Shown here piece by piece: positions 56,363 to 64,000 of a stretch of 64,000 bases of DNA. How positions within the stretch are numbered: position 1 is the first letter of the stretch; each line of letters starts with the position of its first letter. The stretch is from assembly GCA_018003015.1 (NCBI GenBank), contig JAGNEZ010000001.1, positions 140,808-204,807 of the forward strand, in the 5' to 3' direction. Under the pieces are notes generated by a model. That model ran no database searches. It saw nothing but the letters and a program-made list of their open reading frames with translations, and had not been told where the DNA came from. The stretch comes from Phycisphaerae bacterium (GTDB taxonomy: Bacteria > Planctomycetota > Phycisphaerae > UBA1845 > PWPN01). Made by a program: the position numbers and the translations under genes.

Positions 56363-58678
56363 TCAGTCCTGACTCTGAATCCCGTCGATGTAGCCCGTCA
56401 TACCGGTTCGGATGCCCGCGGCATTCCCTTCGTCCGTATCGATATGCATGGCCAGGCGGAAGCTCGGGTCTACACGGACGCGAACGTCGCCAAACACCAG
56501 CTCGCGATCGCCGGGTACCCGCACCCGCACCGTGAACTTGTCGCGTACCCCGTAACGAAGCGCATCCTCCGGTGTCATATGGATATGACGCAAGGCGCAG
56601 ATGACCCCTTTGTCGATGGTGAGTCTGCCGGCGGGGCCCTCCAGGGTGATGCCGGGCGTGTCCTTCAGGTCGCCGGACTCACGTATGGGTGGGTGGATGC
56701 CGAGCTTGAACTGTTCGGTCATCGCGATCTCCACTTGCGTGGCCTTGCGTACCGGCCCGAGGACCCGCACGCGCTCGACGCGGCCCCGGGGACCGACGAG
56801 CGTCACCTGCTCCTCGCAGGCGAACTGGCCGGGTTGCGAGAGGTCGCTCTGCCTGGTGAGTTGATGACCTTGACCGAACAGGGCCTCGACATGCTCCTGG
56901 GTCAGGTGGAGGTGATGGGCCGAAACCTCAATCGGGATAGGTGCCTGGCATTGTGTTTCGAGGGTCCGCATAATGGAAGAGCGGCTCAGAGCCCGCAGCG
57001 ACTCGCGGGCAATCATGCGCTCCTCGTCCGTCGGCACGACCAGCACGGTGACCTGCGAATCGTCGGTGGAAATGCGGCGAATCTCCTCGCAGCCATGGGC
57101 CTCCCGGTTACGCTGTTCGTCCAGGCTAATCCCCATACAGCCCAGCCCCTGTAAGGCCAGGGCTCGAACCCGGGCACTGCCTTGCCCGATTCCGGCGGTG
57201 AAAATGACCACGTCCAGACCGCCCATGGCGGCAACGTACGCACCGAGGTACTTCCGCAGCCGGTAACAGAACGCTTTCAGGGCCAGCAGGGCACGGTGGT
57301 TTCCCTCGTGTGCGGCCCGCTCGACTTCGCGCATGTCGGCGGAAATGCCCGACAACCCCAGCAACCCGCTTTGTCTGTTCAGCAAACCATCAATCTGGTC
57401 GCCGGTAAGACCTTGGGTCCGTTCGAGGTATACCAACACGCCCGGATCGATGTCCCCCCCGCGTGTACCCATGATCAGGCCCTCCGCCGGGGTGAAGCCC
57501 ATTGACGTATCGACGGAGCGGCCGTGGTCCACCGCACAGACCGAAGCACCGTTGCCCAAGTGACAACTGATGATCTCCAGCTCGTTGAGTCGGCGGCCAA
57601 GGTGCTGGGCGGCGGCCAGACAAACGTACGCGTGTGAAGTCCCGTGAAAACCGTAGCGCCGCACCCTGTTGTTCTCATAGTACTCGTAGGGCAGGCCGTA
57701 GAGATAGGCGAACGAAGGCAGCGTATTGTGGAATGCCGTGTCGCATACCGCGAAATGAGGGACCGAAGGAAACACCCGTCGGGCTTCCCTGATGCCGAGA
57801 AGGTTGATGGGGTTGTGCAGCGGCGCCAGAGGACTGAGTGCGTCGAGTTCCCGCAAAACGTCGTCGGTGATAAGCACGGTCTCGGCAAACCGCTCGCCAC
57901 CGTGAACCACACGGTGCCCGACGACGCTGATCTCGGCCGGTTTCGCGACGGCTCCCCCGTCCTTGTTGGTCAATGCGCGGAACATGGCCTCGAACGCCTC
58001 GCGGTGACTACCCTTGGCCAGGTTCTCCGTGACCTCCCCGCGCGGCCCGCGGCAGGTGTGCCGGGTAACGTCAGTGCCGATGCGGTCAACGAGGCCACGA
58101 ACGTTGTGCGATTCGTTCTGCGTGTCGAAAAGGCTGTACTTGAGCGACGAGGATCCGCAGTTGACGACCAGGACCCTCTCCGGTCGTTCACTCTTGAGAT
58201 GCATGCCGTAGGGATCCTCACTCTTGCGAAAGGCGGCGGCCTTGGTGGGGTCCTCCATCACTCTCTTGAACCGCTCCGAGATGGTCTTGGAGATGTGCTG
58301 CAGGGCGCGGGGCTCGGTCATGATCACCGACGAGAAGAGGCTGGCCGGCACCAGGAGCACACTACATCGCGTCTCCGCGATGATGTCGACTATGGTCTTA
58401 TCGCCGCTCATGAGGACCATTTCGCCGAACGTGTCTGCGGCCTTGAGATGCTCAAGCACCTGTCGATCGCCGCCCTCGGCAATGACGGACGCCGACGCCT
58501 GACCCTCCAACATGACGCCGAGATGCATCGCGTCTTCACCGAATTCAACAATGGCCTCGTTCGGCTCGTACGACATCACCTGCGATCCCACGACGAGTTC
58601 AGCCAGTCGCTCGGGGGGAAAGAACTTGAAGAGGCCAACGCTCTGTTTCAGGAAACCTGCAATTGCGGCATCGTTCAT
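56363..58678 (-). CDS. Fusion protein: cNMP-binding-like domain, acetate kinase, PduL phosphotransacylase
   Basis: About 771 residues from the ATG at 58678 (AGGTG upstream; an upstream ATG would add six residues). Residue numbers below count from a start eight codons upstream. Domain 1 (~10-160) is a cyclic-nucleotide-binding fold (FGEMVLMSG at ~92-100), but the Arg that holds the cyclic phosphate is not obvious. Domain 2 (~176-575) is acetate kinase: NCGSSSLKYS, VGHRVVHGGERF, YGFHGTSHAYV, IISCHLGNGAS, LIMGTRGGDIDP and FTAGIGQGSA (usual GIGEN altered to GIGQG). Domain 3 (~588-779) is PduL phosphotransacylase with its three His motifs: VSAHHLHL, RHIHMTPEDA and HIDTDEGNAAG. Together domains 2 and 3 would turn acyl-CoA plus phosphate into acyl-phosphate and then carboxylate plus ATP. 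PduL is known from bacterial microcompartments and as an acetyl-CoA enzyme. Confidence 0.85.
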   Translation of the reverse strand: MNDAAIAGFLKQSVGLFKFFPPERLAELVVGSQVMSYEPNEAIVEFGEDAMHLGVMLEGQASASVIAEGGDRQVLEHLKAADTFGEMVLMSGDKTIVDIIAETRCSVLLVPASLFSSVIMTEPRALQHISKTISERFKRVMEDPTKAAAFRKSEDPYGMHLKSERPERVLVVNCGSSSLKYSLFDTQNESHNVRGLVDRIGTDVTRHTCRGPRGEVTENLAKGSHREAFEAMFRALTNKDGGAVAKPAEISVVGHRVVHGGERFAETVLITDDVLRELDALSPLAPLHNPINLLGIREARRVFPSVPHFAVCDTAFHNTLPSFAYLYGLPYEYYENNRVRRYGFHGTSHAYVCLAAAQHLGRRLNELEIISCHLGNGASVCAVDHGRSVDTSMGFTPAEGLIMGTRGGDIDPGVLVYLERTQGLTGDQIDGLLNRQSGLLGLSGISADMREVERAAHEGNHRALLALKAFCYRLRKYLGAYVAAMGGLDVVIFTAGIGQGSARVRALALQGLGCMGISLDEQRNREAHGCEEIRRISTDDSQVTVLVVPTDEERMIARESLRALSRSSIMRTLETQCQAPIPIEVSAHHLHLTQEHVEALFGQGHQLTRQSDLSQPGQFACEEQVTLVGPRGRVERVRVLGPVRKATQVEIAMTEQFKLGIHPPIRESGDLKDTPGITLEGPAGRLTIDKGVICALRHIHMTPEDALRYGVRDKFTVRVRVPGDRELVFGDVRVRVDPSFRLAMHIDTDEGNAAGIRTGMTGYIDGIQSQD

Positions 58679-59219
58679 CGCTGACACCTGCTTCATGGTC
58701 AATAGTCAACGCACCGCATCATTGTCATGAGATGAACCGGCAAGGACAAGTGCGGCCGGCGAGGGCACCAGCCGTACCACGGGCGCCCACACTCTGGTGA
58801 GCAGTTCTCTACCGGCGATTACCCCAGCCTAGTCCAGCCCCTGAAGCCGATGTTACGCGTAAGCGCTTCGTCTATAGCCTCTTACGATGGACCGAAATCA
58901 GCACTGAACGCTCGATCATCCGCGTCGAAGTTGGTACCCGCGTCCCCCCGCGGCTAGACGATGAGCGGTGCTGATCGGCAGGGCAACGCGGGCTGCAAAC
59001 AGCAGGGCAGATCACCGCTTGCAGCTCGAACGGCCCGCGCTCATGCGCCCGCGGGCTAATCCCTGCCGGTTCATGTGCGACTATGACGCGTCCGCCACGG
59101 TCGTGCACCTTCCGGCGGGACCCTGCACTTTCGAATACTGCTGGGTCGATGAGCCGGCGGGGGCCGTCTGTGTAACCAGCGTGGTCTTCATCCCGTGAAT
59201 CGATCATGAGGACCGCCGC
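58679..59219. other. Intergenic region with a possible small plus-strand gene remnant
   Basis: About 540 bases between the ubiquitin-like operon and the fused kinase gene. A plus-strand frame ending at 59198 has strong third-position G/C bias in its last ~45 codons (start near MCDYDASATVV, end CVTSVVFIP), but no clear ribosome binding site and no recognised family. It may be the tail of a lost gene. Short perfect palindromes TTACGCGTAA (58853-58862) and AAGCGCTT (58861-58868) overlap near 58860. Confidence 0.35.
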
Positions 59220-60035
59220 TCACACCGATGCCCCTTCCGCCGGTGCGACGGGGATCGCAGACGGCCTGACCATGCACTCCGCCCAATCGAAGTGGGCCTC
59301 TGCATAGTGTAGCGCGCCGCAGAAATACAGATAGAACGCTGCAAACTCAAGGGCGGCCGCGTAGAAGTTCGAAAGCAGGATCTGAGGGGCGCCAGCCAGC
59401 AGGTCGACGCATGAGGGCCCGCCGGGAAGACGCTGGTATGATGCGCCGCGAAGCTCAGGGTGCCAGTGACAGGGTGACTTGGTGACATCCCGGCCGCCCT
59501 TGCGTATCTGGACGTAGACGGAGCCGTGCGTGCCGCGCTGCATCCGGCCGGTGCCGGGGTCCGGTTCAACACCATCGTTTCCAGAGAAGAAGACGGCGAC
59601 GTCGCGGAGCTGGGAACAGTAATCCGCAACCAGTCGCCGGCTCGGGTGGTTGTCGAAATTAGCGCTGACCACGTCGCCCTCCCGGATAATGTCCGCGATC
59701 GTCTCCTCGTTCACGTAGCGTTCGACGGCCACGAGCGTCAGCGGCCCCTCGGCAAAGATGGGGAACTCGAGCATGCCCTCGAGACTCGCCGCTGCTTTGT
59801 TTGTCAGTCGTTTGAAGATCTGCCGGGCGGCGTTCGAGTGCTCATAGGAATCCCCATCGACGAGAACCCACCGTGCCCTGCGGTTCTGCCGCATCAGGGT
59901 CGAGGCGACGAAAAGCGCGGCATACTGGTTGAAGATCCCGCCGGTGCCGCCAAGCCCGAGGACTTTGAAGGACTGGTTGTCCGGGATTTCAGGAACCAGG
60001 CGCTGTCCACGGTCTGCTCGTCGATTGGCATCCAT
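59220..60035 (-). CDS. E1-like ThiF-family ubiquitin-like-protein activating enzyme
   Basis: About 271 residues from the ATG at 60035 (GGGAGGG upstream). ATP-binding start VLGLGGTGG (26-34), then VLVDGDSYEHSNAARQIF, where D60, R71 and Q72 match the E1 adenylation residues; K80 and ANFDNHPSRR (D128) complete the site. Two Cys (C189 and C209, the latter in LPGGPSCVD) are candidates for the thioester. It would adenylate the C-terminus of the ubiquitin-like protein encoded at 61829. It resembles the ThiF protein of the PRTRC cassette. Its start overlaps the end of the JAB gene by 47 bases, in another frame. Last gene of the operon. Confidence 0.83.
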   Translation of the reverse strand: MDANRRADRGQRLVPEIPDNQSFKVLGLGGTGGIFNQYAALFVASTLMRQNRRARWVLVDGDSYEHSNAARQIFKRLTNKAAASLEGMLEFPIFAEGPLTLVAVERYVNEETIADIIREGDVVSANFDNHPSRRLVADYCSQLRDVAVFFSGNDGVEPDPGTGRMQRGTHGSVYVQIRKGGRDVTKSPCHWHPELRGASYQRLPGGPSCVDLLAGAPQILLSNFYAAALEFAAFYLYFCGALHYAEAHFDWAECMVRPSAIPVAPAEGASV

Positions 60036-60804
60036 GATTGGACCCTCCCTTATCGGGACATTCTTGCGTCTCCTCGGAATCGACATATCGCCTGTACGTC
60101 TCCTTGTGCACGCGGTCGATCCACCTCGTTGGCACGCGAAGCCGCAGCCTGCGATATCCGCGCTCCAGGATCGAGTCTGCAGCGATGGGGAACCGGTGGC
60201 CGTCGATCACGGCATCTACCTGCACGTGCGGCGGGTGATGGCGGGGAAACGCCCAGATGATGTGAACCATGGCCCGGCTGCGTTCATCCCATTGATCGAT
60301 GATGCTTGCACCGGCGTCATCTCCCGGATGGCTGTGGATGTCTCCGACCAGCATGAACTCCGGTGGCAGGTCCGGAACCTCGTACTTGACGCTCGAGTAC
60401 GTGACGCGCTGCACCGGGCAGATGAGACGATACCGACGCTTCCATCGGTCGTAACAGAGCAGCAGGAAGGATTCCGAGTTGTACATCCGAGCGACCCGGA
60501 CGAAGAATCCGAGGGCAAGCTCGGTCAACCGATAGGGGACCAGGGGCCAGTGAGCCTTGAGTGACGCTCGATGAAGAGCCAGCCCCGGCGGCACAGGCAC
60601 AGGGACGCTCGACTCGAACCAGGGATGATTGCGGCATCGGTAGACGACTGCCTCGGGCTGGCTTCCACCACCGTCGGCGAGCATGTAGAAGAAAGCATCC
60701 TTCGGCCATTGAACCGGCTCACGCTTGAGATAGAACGGCGTGTCCGGCTTCGCTTCGCCGCGCCGCGCCGGCCCCGGCTTCAGCGCATTGTCCTGTATAG
60801 CCAT
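59989..60804 (-). CDS. JAB/JAMM-domain metalloprotease (deubiquitinase-like, PRTRC protein A-like)
   Basis: About 271 residues from the ATG at 60804, which follows AAGGAG. The JAMM signature H-x-H-x7-S-x2-D is exact: HSHPGDDAGASIID, i.e. H157, H159, S167 and D170; E111 is a candidate for the upstream Glu. It would cleave after the C-terminal Gly of the ubiquitin-like protein, either to mature it or to remove it from targets. It starts 20 bases after the E2-like gene and overlaps the E1 gene. The N-terminal ~100 residues are of unknown fold. Close to protein A of the PRTRC plasmid cassette by architecture and position. Confidence 0.85.
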   Translation of the reverse strand: MAIQDNALKPGPARRGEAKPDTPFYLKREPVQWPKDAFFYMLADGGGSQPEAVVYRCRNHPWFESSVPVPVPPGLALHRASLKAHWPLVPYRLTELALGFFVRVARMYNSESFLLLCYDRWKRRYRLICPVQRVTYSSVKYEVPDLPPEFMLVGDIHSHPGDDAGASIIDQWDERSRAMVHIIWAFPRHHPPHVQVDAVIDGHRFPIAADSILERGYRRLRLRVPTRWIDRVHKETYRRYVDSEETQECPDKGGSNHGCQSTSRPWTAPGS

Positions 60805-60824
60805 GGTTCGCTCCTTGGAACCGA

Positions 60825-61697
60825 TCACCCGGCCTTACGCTGCCGGTGATTGAAGACGATCCTCGCCAGATCAGAGCACGACGTGGGCCGCTGCTCCATC
60901 GCACGCTGAAGCCGGAACATGCGGTCAATCACTCCCGCGACGGTCATCCCGGTGCTGATCAACGGGACGTCGAGAGTCCACAGGGGGTTCTCCCTGGTCG
61001 CATCTTCCCACGCTCGTGGGTTCGCAAAACGCTTGTCGCAACCGCGAAGGAGATACTCGGTGTACCACGAACGCTCCTCGTGGCGTTCGCTGCTGCGGTT
61101 GAAGGCCTTTCCGAGCAACACGTCCAGCAGAGTCCGCAGCGAGAGTCGAAGCCGCCGCGTCTCGTTCACCTCGCCGTCACAACTCCGATCCATGTGTTGC
61201 GTGCAAAGCCACGAGAGGGGCTTCGTTTCAGCCACCGGGGCCGCGAACTTCGACGCATTCAGCAGGCACGGGTAGTCCAGCGTATCCGATTGGATGTTCT
61301 CGATCGGTTTCCGGCGCCAGAACACCTCGCAATTCCCTTGCAGCACCTTGTGATGACGCGTCGGCCCCGGGCCCCAGAGCGCCAGGAGTACGACGTAAGG
61401 CCAGGAGATCCGGTAGTTGTGGTATACCGTACCCGGCCCGTAGTCGATCTCGCTGTCAGGCGAGATCCACCGAACCTGCGTGGCCTGTGCCGCCCGTTCG
61501 TACACAAACACCGACCAATCGCTCCGCGAGACGACGGACCGAACGCCGTTGGGCAGCACGTGAACGCCCGTGCTGATCTGCGGCCGGACCATCCGATCCA
61601 GAAACTGCTCCAGCGGCATCCTGGCGGTCGCACCTTCAGGCGAGGTGGCGACAACCTGCCCATCCGTGATGACAATCTGCTCTGTCCCTGCAGCCAT
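60825..61697 (-). CDS. E2-like protein (prokaryotic E2 family, PRTRC protein B-like)
   Basis: About 290 residues from the ATG at 61697 (GGGGAG upstream). The frame is open further upstream, but that extension runs through a hairpin and lacks a ribosome binding site. The central part has the pattern of prokaryotic E2-family proteins: HNYRISWPYVVLLALWG, then DYPCLLNASKF and PLSWLCTQHMD. C165 is the best candidate for the thioester Cys, with N147 upstream like the E2 Asn. The call leans on the position between the ubiquitin-like and JAB genes. Residue-level similarity to classical E2s is weak, so treat the catalytic assignment as inference. Confidence 0.6.
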   Translation of the reverse strand: MAAGTEQIVITDGQVVATSPEGATARMPLEQFLDRMVRPQISTGVHVLPNGVRSVVSRSDWSVFVYERAAQATQVRWISPDSEIDYGPGTVYHNYRISWPYVVLLALWGPGPTRHHKVLQGNCEVFWRRKPIENIQSDTLDYPCLLNASKFAAPVAETKPLSWLCTQHMDRSCDGEVNETRRLRLSLRTLLDVLLGKAFNRSSERHEERSWYTEYLLRGCDKRFANPRAWEDATRENPLWTLDVPLISTGMTVAGVIDRMFRLQRAMEQRPTSCSDLARIVFNHRQRKAG

Positions 61698-61762
61698 GAT
61701 TCTGCTCCCCACAGACCGCTCGTGTTCCAAGCCTTGAAATGCCGTGGCTCGGTGTGCAAGCC

Positions 61763-61781
61763 CGATTCGCGAAGCGAATCG
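61763..61781. other. Intergenic hairpin between the ubiquitin-like and E2-like genes
   Basis: Perfect 8-bp stem CGATTCGC (61763-61770) / GCGAATCG (61774-61781) with a 3-base loop. It lies in the 131-base gap after the ubiquitin-like gene. No T-run follows on the minus strand, so it is not an intrinsic terminator. It could stabilise or partly attenuate the transcript. Confidence 0.5.
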
Positions 61782-61828
61782 CGTGCGGCGGATCAAGAGG
61801 AACCCGGTTATCGCGGCCGACATCCACG

Positions 61829-62140
61829 TCACCTTGAGACGATCGTTCCCTTTTCTCCGATACGGGTGATGAACGTGAGCGACTGTCCCTCGCGCACGAC
61901 GGTCGAATCGTCGACCTCGCTGCCGTCCAACAGCGCGACCGCATCCGGGTCGATCTCGTAGGCGTCCGCGTAACGGCGACGCAATTCCCGGACCGTCGTA
62001 CCCGCCGGACACGTACCCATGTGAATCCCGGCGCTGATCAGCGCGGTCCCCGGGCTCGCCTCGCCCAGGGCAAACGGATCAGCCGACGCGTCGAGGGCGT
62101 CACGGGGACTCTCCCGCAACCTTGGCGTTTGTTCCAGCAT
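61829..62140 (-). CDS. Ubiquitin-like beta-grasp protein (PRTRC protein C-like)
   Basis: 103 residues from the ATG at 62140, chosen because AAGGAG lies just upstream (a start ten codons earlier has none). The N-terminal ~40 residues are a flexible-looking leader. The core ~42-98 is a small beta-grasp: TVRELRRRYADAYEIDP, ALLDGSEVDDSTVV and EGQSLTFITRIGEKG. The core ends at G95-E96-K97-G98 and is followed by five more residues (TIVSR). PRTRC protein C also ends in a G-x-K-G. There is no classical GG, so G98 would be exposed only after trimming. It would be the modifier attached by the E1 and E2-like proteins encoded downstream. Confidence 0.72.
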   Translation of the reverse strand: MLEQTPRLRESPRDALDASADPFALGEASPGTALISAGIHMGTCPAGTTVRELRRRYADAYEIDPDAVALLDGSEVDDSTVVREGQSLTFITRIGEKGTIVSR

Positions 62141-62188
62141 CGCTTTCTCCTTCTGGTTCTGGTTCCACATCCGAACCCGGCACAGGTC

Positions 62189-63445
62189 TCATTCCATGAG
62201 CTCATCGAAGTCCACGCCTGCCTCGAGCGAGTCCGCCGCGGCTACGTCATCGGGCGTCACCACGGTGCCCCCGCGCCATGTGGTGGCGGCGATGGCCGCG
62301 GCGAGCAGGCTGGCCGCCGCCCCCGGCTGGGCCTGCCCGTGCTGGGCGGACAACCGCAGCACCATGCGCCGGGCCGCCGGCTCGACTTCAACGCCACTTG
62401 CCGAAGCGTGCGAGTCCAGTGCCCGGGCCAACGCATCGCCCACCGGGGTCTCCAAGGGCGTCAGTACGAGCCGACGCCGCAGAGCACTGTCAGCCGCGAT
62501 CCGCCGGAGCGAGACCGAAGGAGCCTTGAGCGTGCCGAATAGCCGTAAGCCCCGATCCAGCCCCGCGGCCAACAGGGCGTGACTGATTGGCGTCCCGAGA
62601 AGCAGATCAATTCCCTTCACCAGGAACAGAGACCCGACCTGCTCCTGCATCTCGGTCAGCATCGTCATCAGAGCGGCGTCGCGGTCGGTCTCGAACATCG
62701 CGCCGGCCGCGACCACCGCCGCCTCGATTCGGAACACACGGCGCACGACCCTGCGCTCCATGAGCTGGTTCGCAGCGGCGACCATCACCGTGTCCTTGCC
62801 TGCCCCCGCAACCCCGATCACGATGGCCGCATGGGGCGGCTCGGGACGGGCCGCGATCATGGCAAGTTGTTCGGCCTGATAGGGCCGGATGCAGCGCTGC
62901 TCAGCGGCGGCGGCGTCCTCTTTGGTGATGACTTCGGCTCGAGCCAAGACCCGTCCGGTCGGCGATTCGTCTTCCGCCGGTGAAGCCGCGGTTTCCCGCT
63001 CCACGGCCTCCCGGACCCCTGCCAGACAGGACGAGCCGAACAGCTCGAGAACCTCTAGAAGAACATCTAAAACTCTATCGCCTGGTACCGGATCCAGGTC
63101 AAGTCGTCGCCAGCGGCGGCGACAGGGACCGCGGCGAAGCAGATCAGCCAGGCCGGGCGCGTCGCCACCCCGATACTCCAGATCGTCGTCCACCATGACG
63201 ATCGCGCCGCCGCATGCCGCCTGCCCGAGCACCAGCACGTTCGTTGCACCCTTGTTGAACCGCTCATTGGTGGGAACATCGGTGAACAGGACCATGCGGG
63301 CACTGCACATCTCGATGCCGATGCCGTAGGCCGCGAGCACGCCGACCAGCGGCTCGCCGACGTGGGCGAATCGGCCTGGGGGGCATCGGCCGAACCCGAC
63401 AGGAGCGTGGGCAGAACCGTCTCGGATTCGTGGGGGGGTGGTCAT
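62189..63445 (-). CDS. ClpA/ClpB-D1-like AAA+ protein with degenerate Walker B
   Basis: 418 residues. The first ~180 residues are of unknown fold (VGEPLVGVLAAYGIGIEM, TNVLVLGQAACGGAIVMVDD). From ~185 the protein aligns with a Clp first AAA+ domain: Walker A GVAGAGKDT at 211-219 (Lys kept), LTEMQEQVGSLFLVKGIDLLLG where the Walker B Asp-Glu is Val-Lys (~276-277), and GTLKAPSVSLRRIAADSALRRR in place of the sensor 1 and arginine-finger region. It probably binds ATP but does not hydrolyse it well. It overlaps the upstream AAA+ gene by four bases and lies 48 bases before the ubiquitin-like gene, so it belongs to the same operon. Confidence 0.7.
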   Translation of the reverse strand: MTTPPRIRDGSAHAPVGFGRCPPGRFAHVGEPLVGVLAAYGIGIEMCSARMVLFTDVPTNERFNKGATNVLVLGQAACGGAIVMVDDDLEYRGGDAPGLADLLRRGPCRRRWRRLDLDPVPGDRVLDVLLEVLELFGSSCLAGVREAVERETAASPAEDESPTGRVLARAEVITKEDAAAAEQRCIRPYQAEQLAMIAARPEPPHAAIVIGVAGAGKDTVMVAAANQLMERRVVRRVFRIEAAVVAAGAMFETDRDAALMTMLTEMQEQVGSLFLVKGIDLLLGTPISHALLAAGLDRGLRLFGTLKAPSVSLRRIAADSALRRRLVLTPLETPVGDALARALDSHASASGVEVEPAARRMVLRLSAQHGQAQPGAAASLLAAAIAATTWRGGTVVTPDDVAAADSLEAGVDFDELME

Positions 63446-64000
63446 GACGCGGCCCTCAGCAGTTCATGGCTCGAAACGATCGGGGATTGCTCAATCAGGC
63501 GGACGTCGCTGATCTGGCCGGCCCCGACATCCACGTATCCCGTGATATTGCCGCGATTGCACATCTCCGCAACATCGCGGATCTGCCGATCCAACGCGCC
63601 GAGAAGGACGCGGGTGGTGATTCCGACCTCCCGGCCGGTCTTGGCCTCCTGCCGACGAACCCTGCGCGCAGCCTGTTCGACCGCCTTGGCAACAATCGCC
63701 GGCGTGAGCATCTGGCGACGGTAGATGATCATCGGCGTGCTGCTGCCGACAAGGTAGACCTGGAGTTGCCCGGGATCGCCGTTCGGCGCGAACAGGAATG
63801 CCTCAGCCTCCGAAACCAGGCGCTGTCGTGCGGCCTTCTCGCCGGGCTCACCCTGGAGCGCGACCGGCAGCCTGCCGAGATGTTTGGCGATCACCGAGCG
63901 GAAGTGGTGCCGGTCGAGATGGCCAAACCGCGTGACCTGGAAGCGACGGGTAAATGCACTGTCCAAGGCCTCGACCAGGTTCGTCGTGGCGATCACGATC
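63442..64000 (-). CDS. AAA+ ATPase, C-terminal part (start beyond window)
   Basis: About 185 residues of the C-terminal part are visible; the frame runs off the right edge. It begins in the AAA+ core with the sensor 1 and arginine-finger region (VIATTNLVEALDSAFTRRF), then a helical lid. QVYLVGSSTPMIIYRR and VGITTRVLLGALDRQIRDV lie near the end. The arginine finger is intact, in contrast to the next gene, so this one is likely the active ATPase of the pair. It overlaps the Clp-like gene by four bases (ATGA), which makes it the first visible gene of the ubiquitin-like operon. The sub-family (Cdc48-, MoxR- or Clp-type) cannot be settled from this piece. Confidence 0.75.
   Translation of the reverse strand, partial: IVIATTNLVEALDSAFTRRFQVTRFGHLDRHHFRSVIAKHLGRLPVALQGEPGEKAARQRLVSEAEAFLFAPNGDPGQLQVYLVGSSTPMIIYRRQMLTPAIVAKAVEQAARRVRRQEAKTGREVGITTRVLLGALDRQIRDVAEMCNRGNITGYVDVGAGQISDVRLIEQSPIVSSHELLRAAS

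Follow-up and report, generated by a model that had tools for sequence, protein, structure and literature searches.

We analyzed a 64,000-nucleotide stretch of DNA from a Phycisphaerae bacterium (the window; bases 140808-204807 of a 273-kb contig, in a genome of 6.86 Mb with 98.7% completeness) which ends within a minus-strand operon where two complete gene sets for ubiquitin-like protein (Ubl) conjugation flank the gene for an Mpa-like AAA+ ATPase. We consider it probable that this locus encodes two Ubl conjugation cascades which serve a single ring unfoldase of the Mpa/ARC family, and the coupling of a Ubl cassette to an AAA+ unfoldase is well supported. The operon extends 7 kb beyond the window end, to approximately position 71159 in window numbering, and comprises 13 genes (g0-g12), all on the minus strand and transcribed in the order g0 to g12, with Ubl cassette 1 upstream and cassette 2 downstream of the ATPase gene. 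Likely gene starts were picked by Shine-Dalgarno sequence. The window's genome is referred to as G000, its congener as G001 and the window's locus as L002.

71159-70578, minus strand: g0, small protein with a hydrophobic N-terminus, kept in the congener alone as far as seen
70343-69684, minus strand: g1, RING-type zinc protein of cassette 1, outside the window
69684-68416, minus strand: g2, E1 of cassette 1, outside the window (ThiF family, E=7e-15)
68419-67757, minus strand: g3, reads as the E2 of cassette 1 (HxN..CLG), outside the window
67760-66924 (L002 9732-10568), minus strand: g4, conserved protein without a family match, outside the window
66927-66601, minus strand: g5, Ubl1 of cassette 1, 108 aa, with a C-terminal Gly, outside the window
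66483-65320, minus strand: g6, JAMM protease of cassette 1, adjoining the AAA+ gene, outside the window
65205-63442 (L002:6250-8013), minus strand: g7, Mpa/ARC-like AAA+ protein, 587 aa (PF00004, E=2e-19); its 3' part, 63442-64000, is in the window
62189-63445, minus strand: g8, degenerate ClpC-D1-like AAA+ protein, 418 aa (weak match to the ClpC D1 profile, E=1e-5)
61829-62140, minus strand: g9, Ubl2 of cassette 2, 103 aa, modelled as a beta-grasp
60825-61697, minus strand: g10 (E2b), E2-like protein of cassette 2, 290 aa, with structural alignments to E2s
59989-60804, minus strand: g11, JAMM/JAB metalloprotease of cassette 2, 271 aa, with invariant JAMM residues
59220-60035, minus strand: g12, E1-like ThiF-family adenylyltransferase of cassette 2, 271 aa (PF00899, E=4e-8)

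Neighbouring genes from g1 to g5 overlap by 1-4 bases, as do g7 and g8 (an ATGA overlap), and the largest gap within g1-g12 is 131 bases. The operon and the remainder of the window have equal G+C content, and a promoter and terminator scan of the locus gave nothing exceeding chance. The congener carries the identical 13-gene set at the same genomic place, and purifying selection on all genes was observed when the two congeneric genomes were compared (omega 0.10-0.41). A preliminary description of the sequence had reported six minus-strand genes, all of which are present with open frames, and had read them as a Ubl cassette in PRTRC-like order coupled to two AAA+ proteins. The order is confirmed for g9-g10-g11-g12, and the coupling is borne out by the same linkage in independent lineages. 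That description covered only the downstream half of an operon of double the length; it did not include the second full Ubl system upstream with its RING-type protein, nor did it recognize the ATPase as Mpa/ARC-like or note the alternation with Pup described below.

A profile of the ATPase found matches in 7 of 392 planctomycete genomes and a profile of g10 in 4, all four within the seven, a co-occurrence for which we calculate a chance of approximately 4e-8 if the two genes were independent. When 84,980 species genomes were scanned with g10, five loci came back, each with the ATPase gene upstream: in the window's genus and in G205 g8 lies in between, and in the others the ATPase is directly upstream. 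Three further loci outside the 392-genome co-occurrence agree with the ATPase-Ubl2-E2-JAMM-E1 linkage, and in L038 and L039 E2b lies directly downstream of the JAMM-ATPase pair. One E2b locus comes from a deltaproteobacterial metagenome-assembled genome, in which a binning error is possible. In all 11 loci known the ATPase gene is immediately preceded by a JAMM gene. Because the linkage of cassette 2 and the ATPase recurs in independent lineages, chance adjacency was ruled out.

Four ATPase loci without E2b (G110, G076, G073 and G007) carry two Pup-ligase-family genes directly downstream of the ATPase, with a Pup gene ending in GGE, GGQ or SGE between them, and this set of Pup ligase, Pup and second ligase-family gene occupies the position of cassette 2. 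Since Pup and two ligase-family genes stand in the place of cascade 2 in these sister loci, it is probable that one tag read by the ATPase gave way to the other, either pupylation to cascade 2 or cascade 2 to pupylation. The Ubl2-linked and the Pup-linked ATPases form two separate groups in the tree (support 100/99 and 98/95, respectively), and actinobacterial ARC stands apart. No match to Pup ligase (PF03136) was found in G000, G001, G118 or G205, while the control Corynebacterium glutamicum was found, and a search of G000 for 20S proteasome subunits found none, its sole proteasome-family match reading as HslV. G366, whose operon includes cassette 2, has one distant member of the Pup-ligase family, encoded outside that operon (L055 6481-8364). 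The loci L018 and L019 (G110 and G076) place Pup and Pup ligases beside the Mpa-like ATPase, and no proteasome-family protein, HslV included, was found in these two assemblies, which are 90-94% complete. G007 and the window's genome belong to one family, and the G007 locus (L013 5943-12470) keeps the RING-type protein, g4, JAMM, ATPase and Pup.

By its alignments g7 is an Mpa/ARC-family proteasomal-type ATPase. The g7 family profile aligns to Mpa/ARC chains over nearly its full length (48-547), the single sequence aligns by phmmer over 175-553 (the OB-AAA-C-terminal part), and a Pup-linked sister matches both proteasomal-ATPase OB models. The g7 family shares the Mpa/ARC layout of an N-terminal helical region, an OB region, an AAA+ domain and a family-specific C-terminal region, and the Walker A motif of g7 is intact. 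Both actinobacterial ARCs which we compared end in GQYL, the proteasome docking motif of actinobacterial ARC (PMC8223512); none of the 11 relatives has a GQYL end, and g7, which ends in ...SSHELLRAAS, lacks a GQYL/HbYX motif for 20S docking. The preliminary description had proposed two AAA+ proteins as a working pair, and this stood for g7 as a motor but not for g8. The Walker A motif of g8 reads GVAGAGKD in the window and AAAGAGRD in G205, its Walker B motif (LFLVKGID) lacks DE, and both motifs are broken in all three sequences, so that g8 is probably dead as an ATPase. It is present only in G000, G001 and G205 (two lineages), and no g8 was found between g7 and Ubl2 in G366, L038 or L039. From the Walker loss and this absence, the pair is best taken as a single motor plus a probable pseudo-ATPase accessory.

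In cassette 2, the adenylation residues of g12 (GLGG, DGD, R71, NK and D128) and Cys209, probably catalytic, are invariant across four lineages, as are the JAMM residues of g11 (E111, H157-S-H159, S167-x2-D170) in the conserved set; the preliminary description had noted the E1 residues and an exact JAMM motif, and had set beforehand two fold checks, on the proteins beginning at 61829 and 60825. For the former (g9), an AlphaFold (AF2) model built from six sequences gave a beta-grasp core with a predicted local distance difference test score (pLDDT) of about 89, which Foldseek and VIA-align matched to ubiquitin, SUMO and MoaD with Z up to 8.6; g9 thus models as a ubiquitin/MoaD-type beta-grasp Ubl with a terminal Gly. 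All lineages except G366, which has SVRG instead, carry GEKG, followed in most by a tail of 0-5 residues. In L039 (2250-3548) Ubl2 and E2 form one continuous open frame with GEKG at the junction, and cleavage at GEKG would therefore be required there. For the latter (g10), which has an invariant W-x-C-T cysteine (Cys165) and a downstream N-x-SSE-x-H, the model was of lower quality (pLDDT 71.5, predicted template modelling score 0.65); the first 11 structures aligned by VIA-align were without exception E2s or a chain that includes an E2, with modest Z scores (3.7-5.2), and we assign g10 as an E2 with moderate confidence. Neither check thus refuted the system as first described.

Cassette 1 holds counterparts of these proteins together with a RING-type protein. 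The adenylation residues of g2 are conserved and one cysteine is invariant in its set. g3 reads as a classical E2, with HPN then CLG in relatives and HSN..CLG in the window protein. Alignment of both g3 and g10 with hhalign against the family-D E2s of Bacillota plasmids found nothing, and a profile search of the PDB nothing useful. Eight metal ligands in g1 form a C4HC3-like pattern, kept across seven genomes with small variations, and the protein matches Prok-RING_1 under the cutoff (E=4e-4). The JAMM residues of g6 are E219, H288-x-H290 and S321-x2-D324, with three invariant cysteines inside an insert. Ubl1 (g5) has an invariant Gly near its C-terminus and ends in HLG or RLG in three lineages, while the window's genus has a CWGPRGG tail. 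The remaining protein, g4, found no matching family in Pfam or PDB profile searches, and is kept in the loci with Ubl2 as well as in two or more of those with Pup.

From these observations we infer a scheme of conjugation, tag recognition and unfolding, and with it the activity, the substrates and the physiological role of the system. In cascade 1, the JAMM protein g6 would trim Ubl1 to its conserved ...LG end, the E1 g2 would adenylate it, the E2 g3 would carry it and the RING-type g1 would direct its transfer; in cascade 2, g11 would trim Ubl2 to ...GEKG, g12 would activate it and g10 would transfer it. The helical/OB N-region of the g7 ring would bind tagged proteins, which g7 would then unfold or pull from complexes using ATP. 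That g7 recognizes Ubl2 is suggested by linkage and by alternation with Pup alone. The JAMM protein encoded beside g7 could remove the tag in the manner of Rpn11, which acts beside the proteasomal ATPases. Because the genome is without a 20S core and g7 without a C-terminal docking motif, the outcome would probably be non-proteasomal disassembly or extraction, or else hand-off to some other protease. The nearest tested precedent is the ARC of C. glutamicum, an organism which has Pup and ARC and no 20S core and in which ARC has been proposed to dismantle pupylated ferritin without degradation (PMC8223512). More tentatively, and at somewhat under even chances, one unfoldase may read either Pup or a folded Ubl depending on lineage, with the tagging chemistry (Pup ligase versus E1-E2) exchanged, and the window's form, having two Ubl tags and no proteasome, may be a bacterial counterpart of ubiquitin-Cdc48.

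Several points weigh against two cascades serving one unfoldase. Only 11 loci are known, and in two of the genomes the locus is split over two contigs, which break at matching points: in G118 cassette 2 and the ATPase are on separate contigs, and in G205 the two ATPase halves are. The Walker B motif (LEEID) and arginine-finger regions of g7 are divergent, and its pore loop, SHLLG, has no aromatic residue where nearly all relatives have W or F, the residue being missing in the window's genus only; the unfolding power of this g7 may therefore be weak. The identity of g3 as an E2 comes solely from motifs, and a Foldseek search with the g10 model gave no match at E<0.001, its E values lying above 0.1. 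Since the G007 locus has no E1, E2 or Ubl1, the upstream genes need not be a cascade everywhere, and they may have a role apart from one. The ATPase tree has no outside root, and thus the order of the two tags is not given by it.

A conflict (anti-phage or immune) system comparable to Bil/Bub or FtsH-ternary, whose effector step would be the attachment of Ubls to proteins of the invader or of the cell itself, with the ATPase remodelling the complex so tagged, is an alternative which we consider unlikely. Its patchy spread over distant families and into the deltaproteobacterial genome would fit such a system, as would weak PADLOC matches to E1-E2 and to TRIP13/IetA (generic AAA), and related Ubl tri-ligase systems occur in predicted conflict systems (PMC7159879). 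However, Pfam shows no toxin, nuclease, caspase, sensor or vWA/MoxR partner in the 13 genes, the operon sits at the same place in both congeners among metabolic neighbours (a cNMP-acetate kinase-PduL gene and an oxidoreductase), and searches of viral contigs and of plasmids found no relative of E2b. It is very improbable that the Ubl-E1-JAMM sets instead thiolate a metabolite, with no protein conjugation and the ATPase as a bystander. The Ubl2 model does match MoaD and TtuB as well as ubiquitin, and the E1s are ThiF-type, but ThiS/MoaD pathways include neither E2-type proteins, of which there are two here, nor a RING-type zinc protein, the 13 genes include no rhodanese or cysteine synthase gene by Pfam, and the JAMM-ATPase adjacency is constant.

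We give hardly any weight to cassette 2 being a chromosomal PRTRC-type plasmid-maintenance cassette which lies beside an unrelated Mpa-like operon, a reading which is largely refuted. The gene order C-B-A-ThiF is shared, and g11 is weakly PRTRC_A-like (E=4.6e-4, 19.8 bits against a cutoff of 101.8) and related to the JABs of Bacillota plasmid Ubl cassettes (97.9% by hhalign). Against this, the PRTRC B, C and ThiF models gave no match at E<=1, the ATPase is linked in every lineage with E2b and its phylogeny follows the linkage. Plain PRTRC identity was ruled out by scores below the model cutoffs and by the lack of plasmid relatives of E2b.

The neighbouring cNMP-acetate kinase-PduL gene (56363-58702, minus strand, in the window) is a single-gene fusion of a cyclic-nucleotide-binding domain, acetate kinase and a PduL-type phosphotransacylase (PTAC), and would combine the entire acetyl-CoA to acetate step and a possible sensor in one protein.

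Ubl tagging has neither its chemistry nor its protein fold in common with Pup tagging, and yet the two alternate behind the same Mpa-like ATPase and JAMM, which suggests that in bacteria the protein tag was exchanged while the machine it serves stayed the same. If this is true, these loci are a natural experiment on the co-evolution of a tag and an unfolding motor, and the operon offers a compact set of E1, E2, RING-type protein, JAMM and ring ATPase for probing Ubl tagging before or without a proteasome. No account of an Mpa-like ATPase flanked by two Ubl cascades, or of the exchange with Pup, was found in the literature covered, and an earlier mention is possible in key subscription papers outside that coverage.

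Among known systems, the clustering of Ub, E1, E2, RING and an Rpn11-type JAMM in the ubiquitin operon of Caldiarchaeum is similar to that seen here, but that operon is archaeal, with near-eukaryotic sequences and a true proteasome, whereas the present one is bacterial and has two Ubls and no 20S core. The Bil/Bub antiphage operons also hold Ubl, E1, E2 and JAMM within one operon; Bil is defined by a two-domain, ISG15-like BilA (PMC11354881), whereas both Ubls here are single-domain (Ubl2 with one modelled beta-grasp) and occur in two cascades alongside an Mpa-like ATPase, with no link to defence known. FtsH-ternary conflict systems consist of vWA, MoxR, a double-FtsH AAA and a caspase-like effector (PMC7159879), none of which was found by Pfam in the 13 operon genes. 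Cassettes resembling cassette 2 were described in 2006 as row 6d Ubl-JAB-E1-E2/PRTRC operons (Iyer 2006, PMC1779556), and cassette 2 shares with them its gene order, a conserved His C-terminal to the E2 cysteine and an N-terminal domain before the JAB. It differs in falling below all PRTRC cutoffs, in an E2 profile (g10) which could not be aligned to family-D E2s, in being chromosomal (on the 273-kb contig, at a constant place in both congeners) and in being joined to an ATPase.

The actinobacterial Mpa/ARC-Pup-proteasome system has the same ATPase family, with OB, AAA and C-terminal regions that align, but the window's genome has two Ubl cascades and is without Pup ligase, 20S core and GQYL end. 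A 2008 paper noted Pup in planctomycetes that have no proteasome genes (PMC2588565), and Kaur et al. 2020 (PMC7159879) mention in a single sentence a Ubl conjugation system of planctomycetes and Thermofonsia that is coupled to Pup conjugation. As far as that sentence describes it, their system is probably the arrangement observed in G110, G076, G073 and G007, with RING-type protein, E1, E2, Ubl and JAMM beside Pup (G007 being without E1, E2 and Ubl1); the window's form differs from it in carrying, instead of Pup and Pup ligase, a second Ubl-E2-JAMM-E1 cassette.

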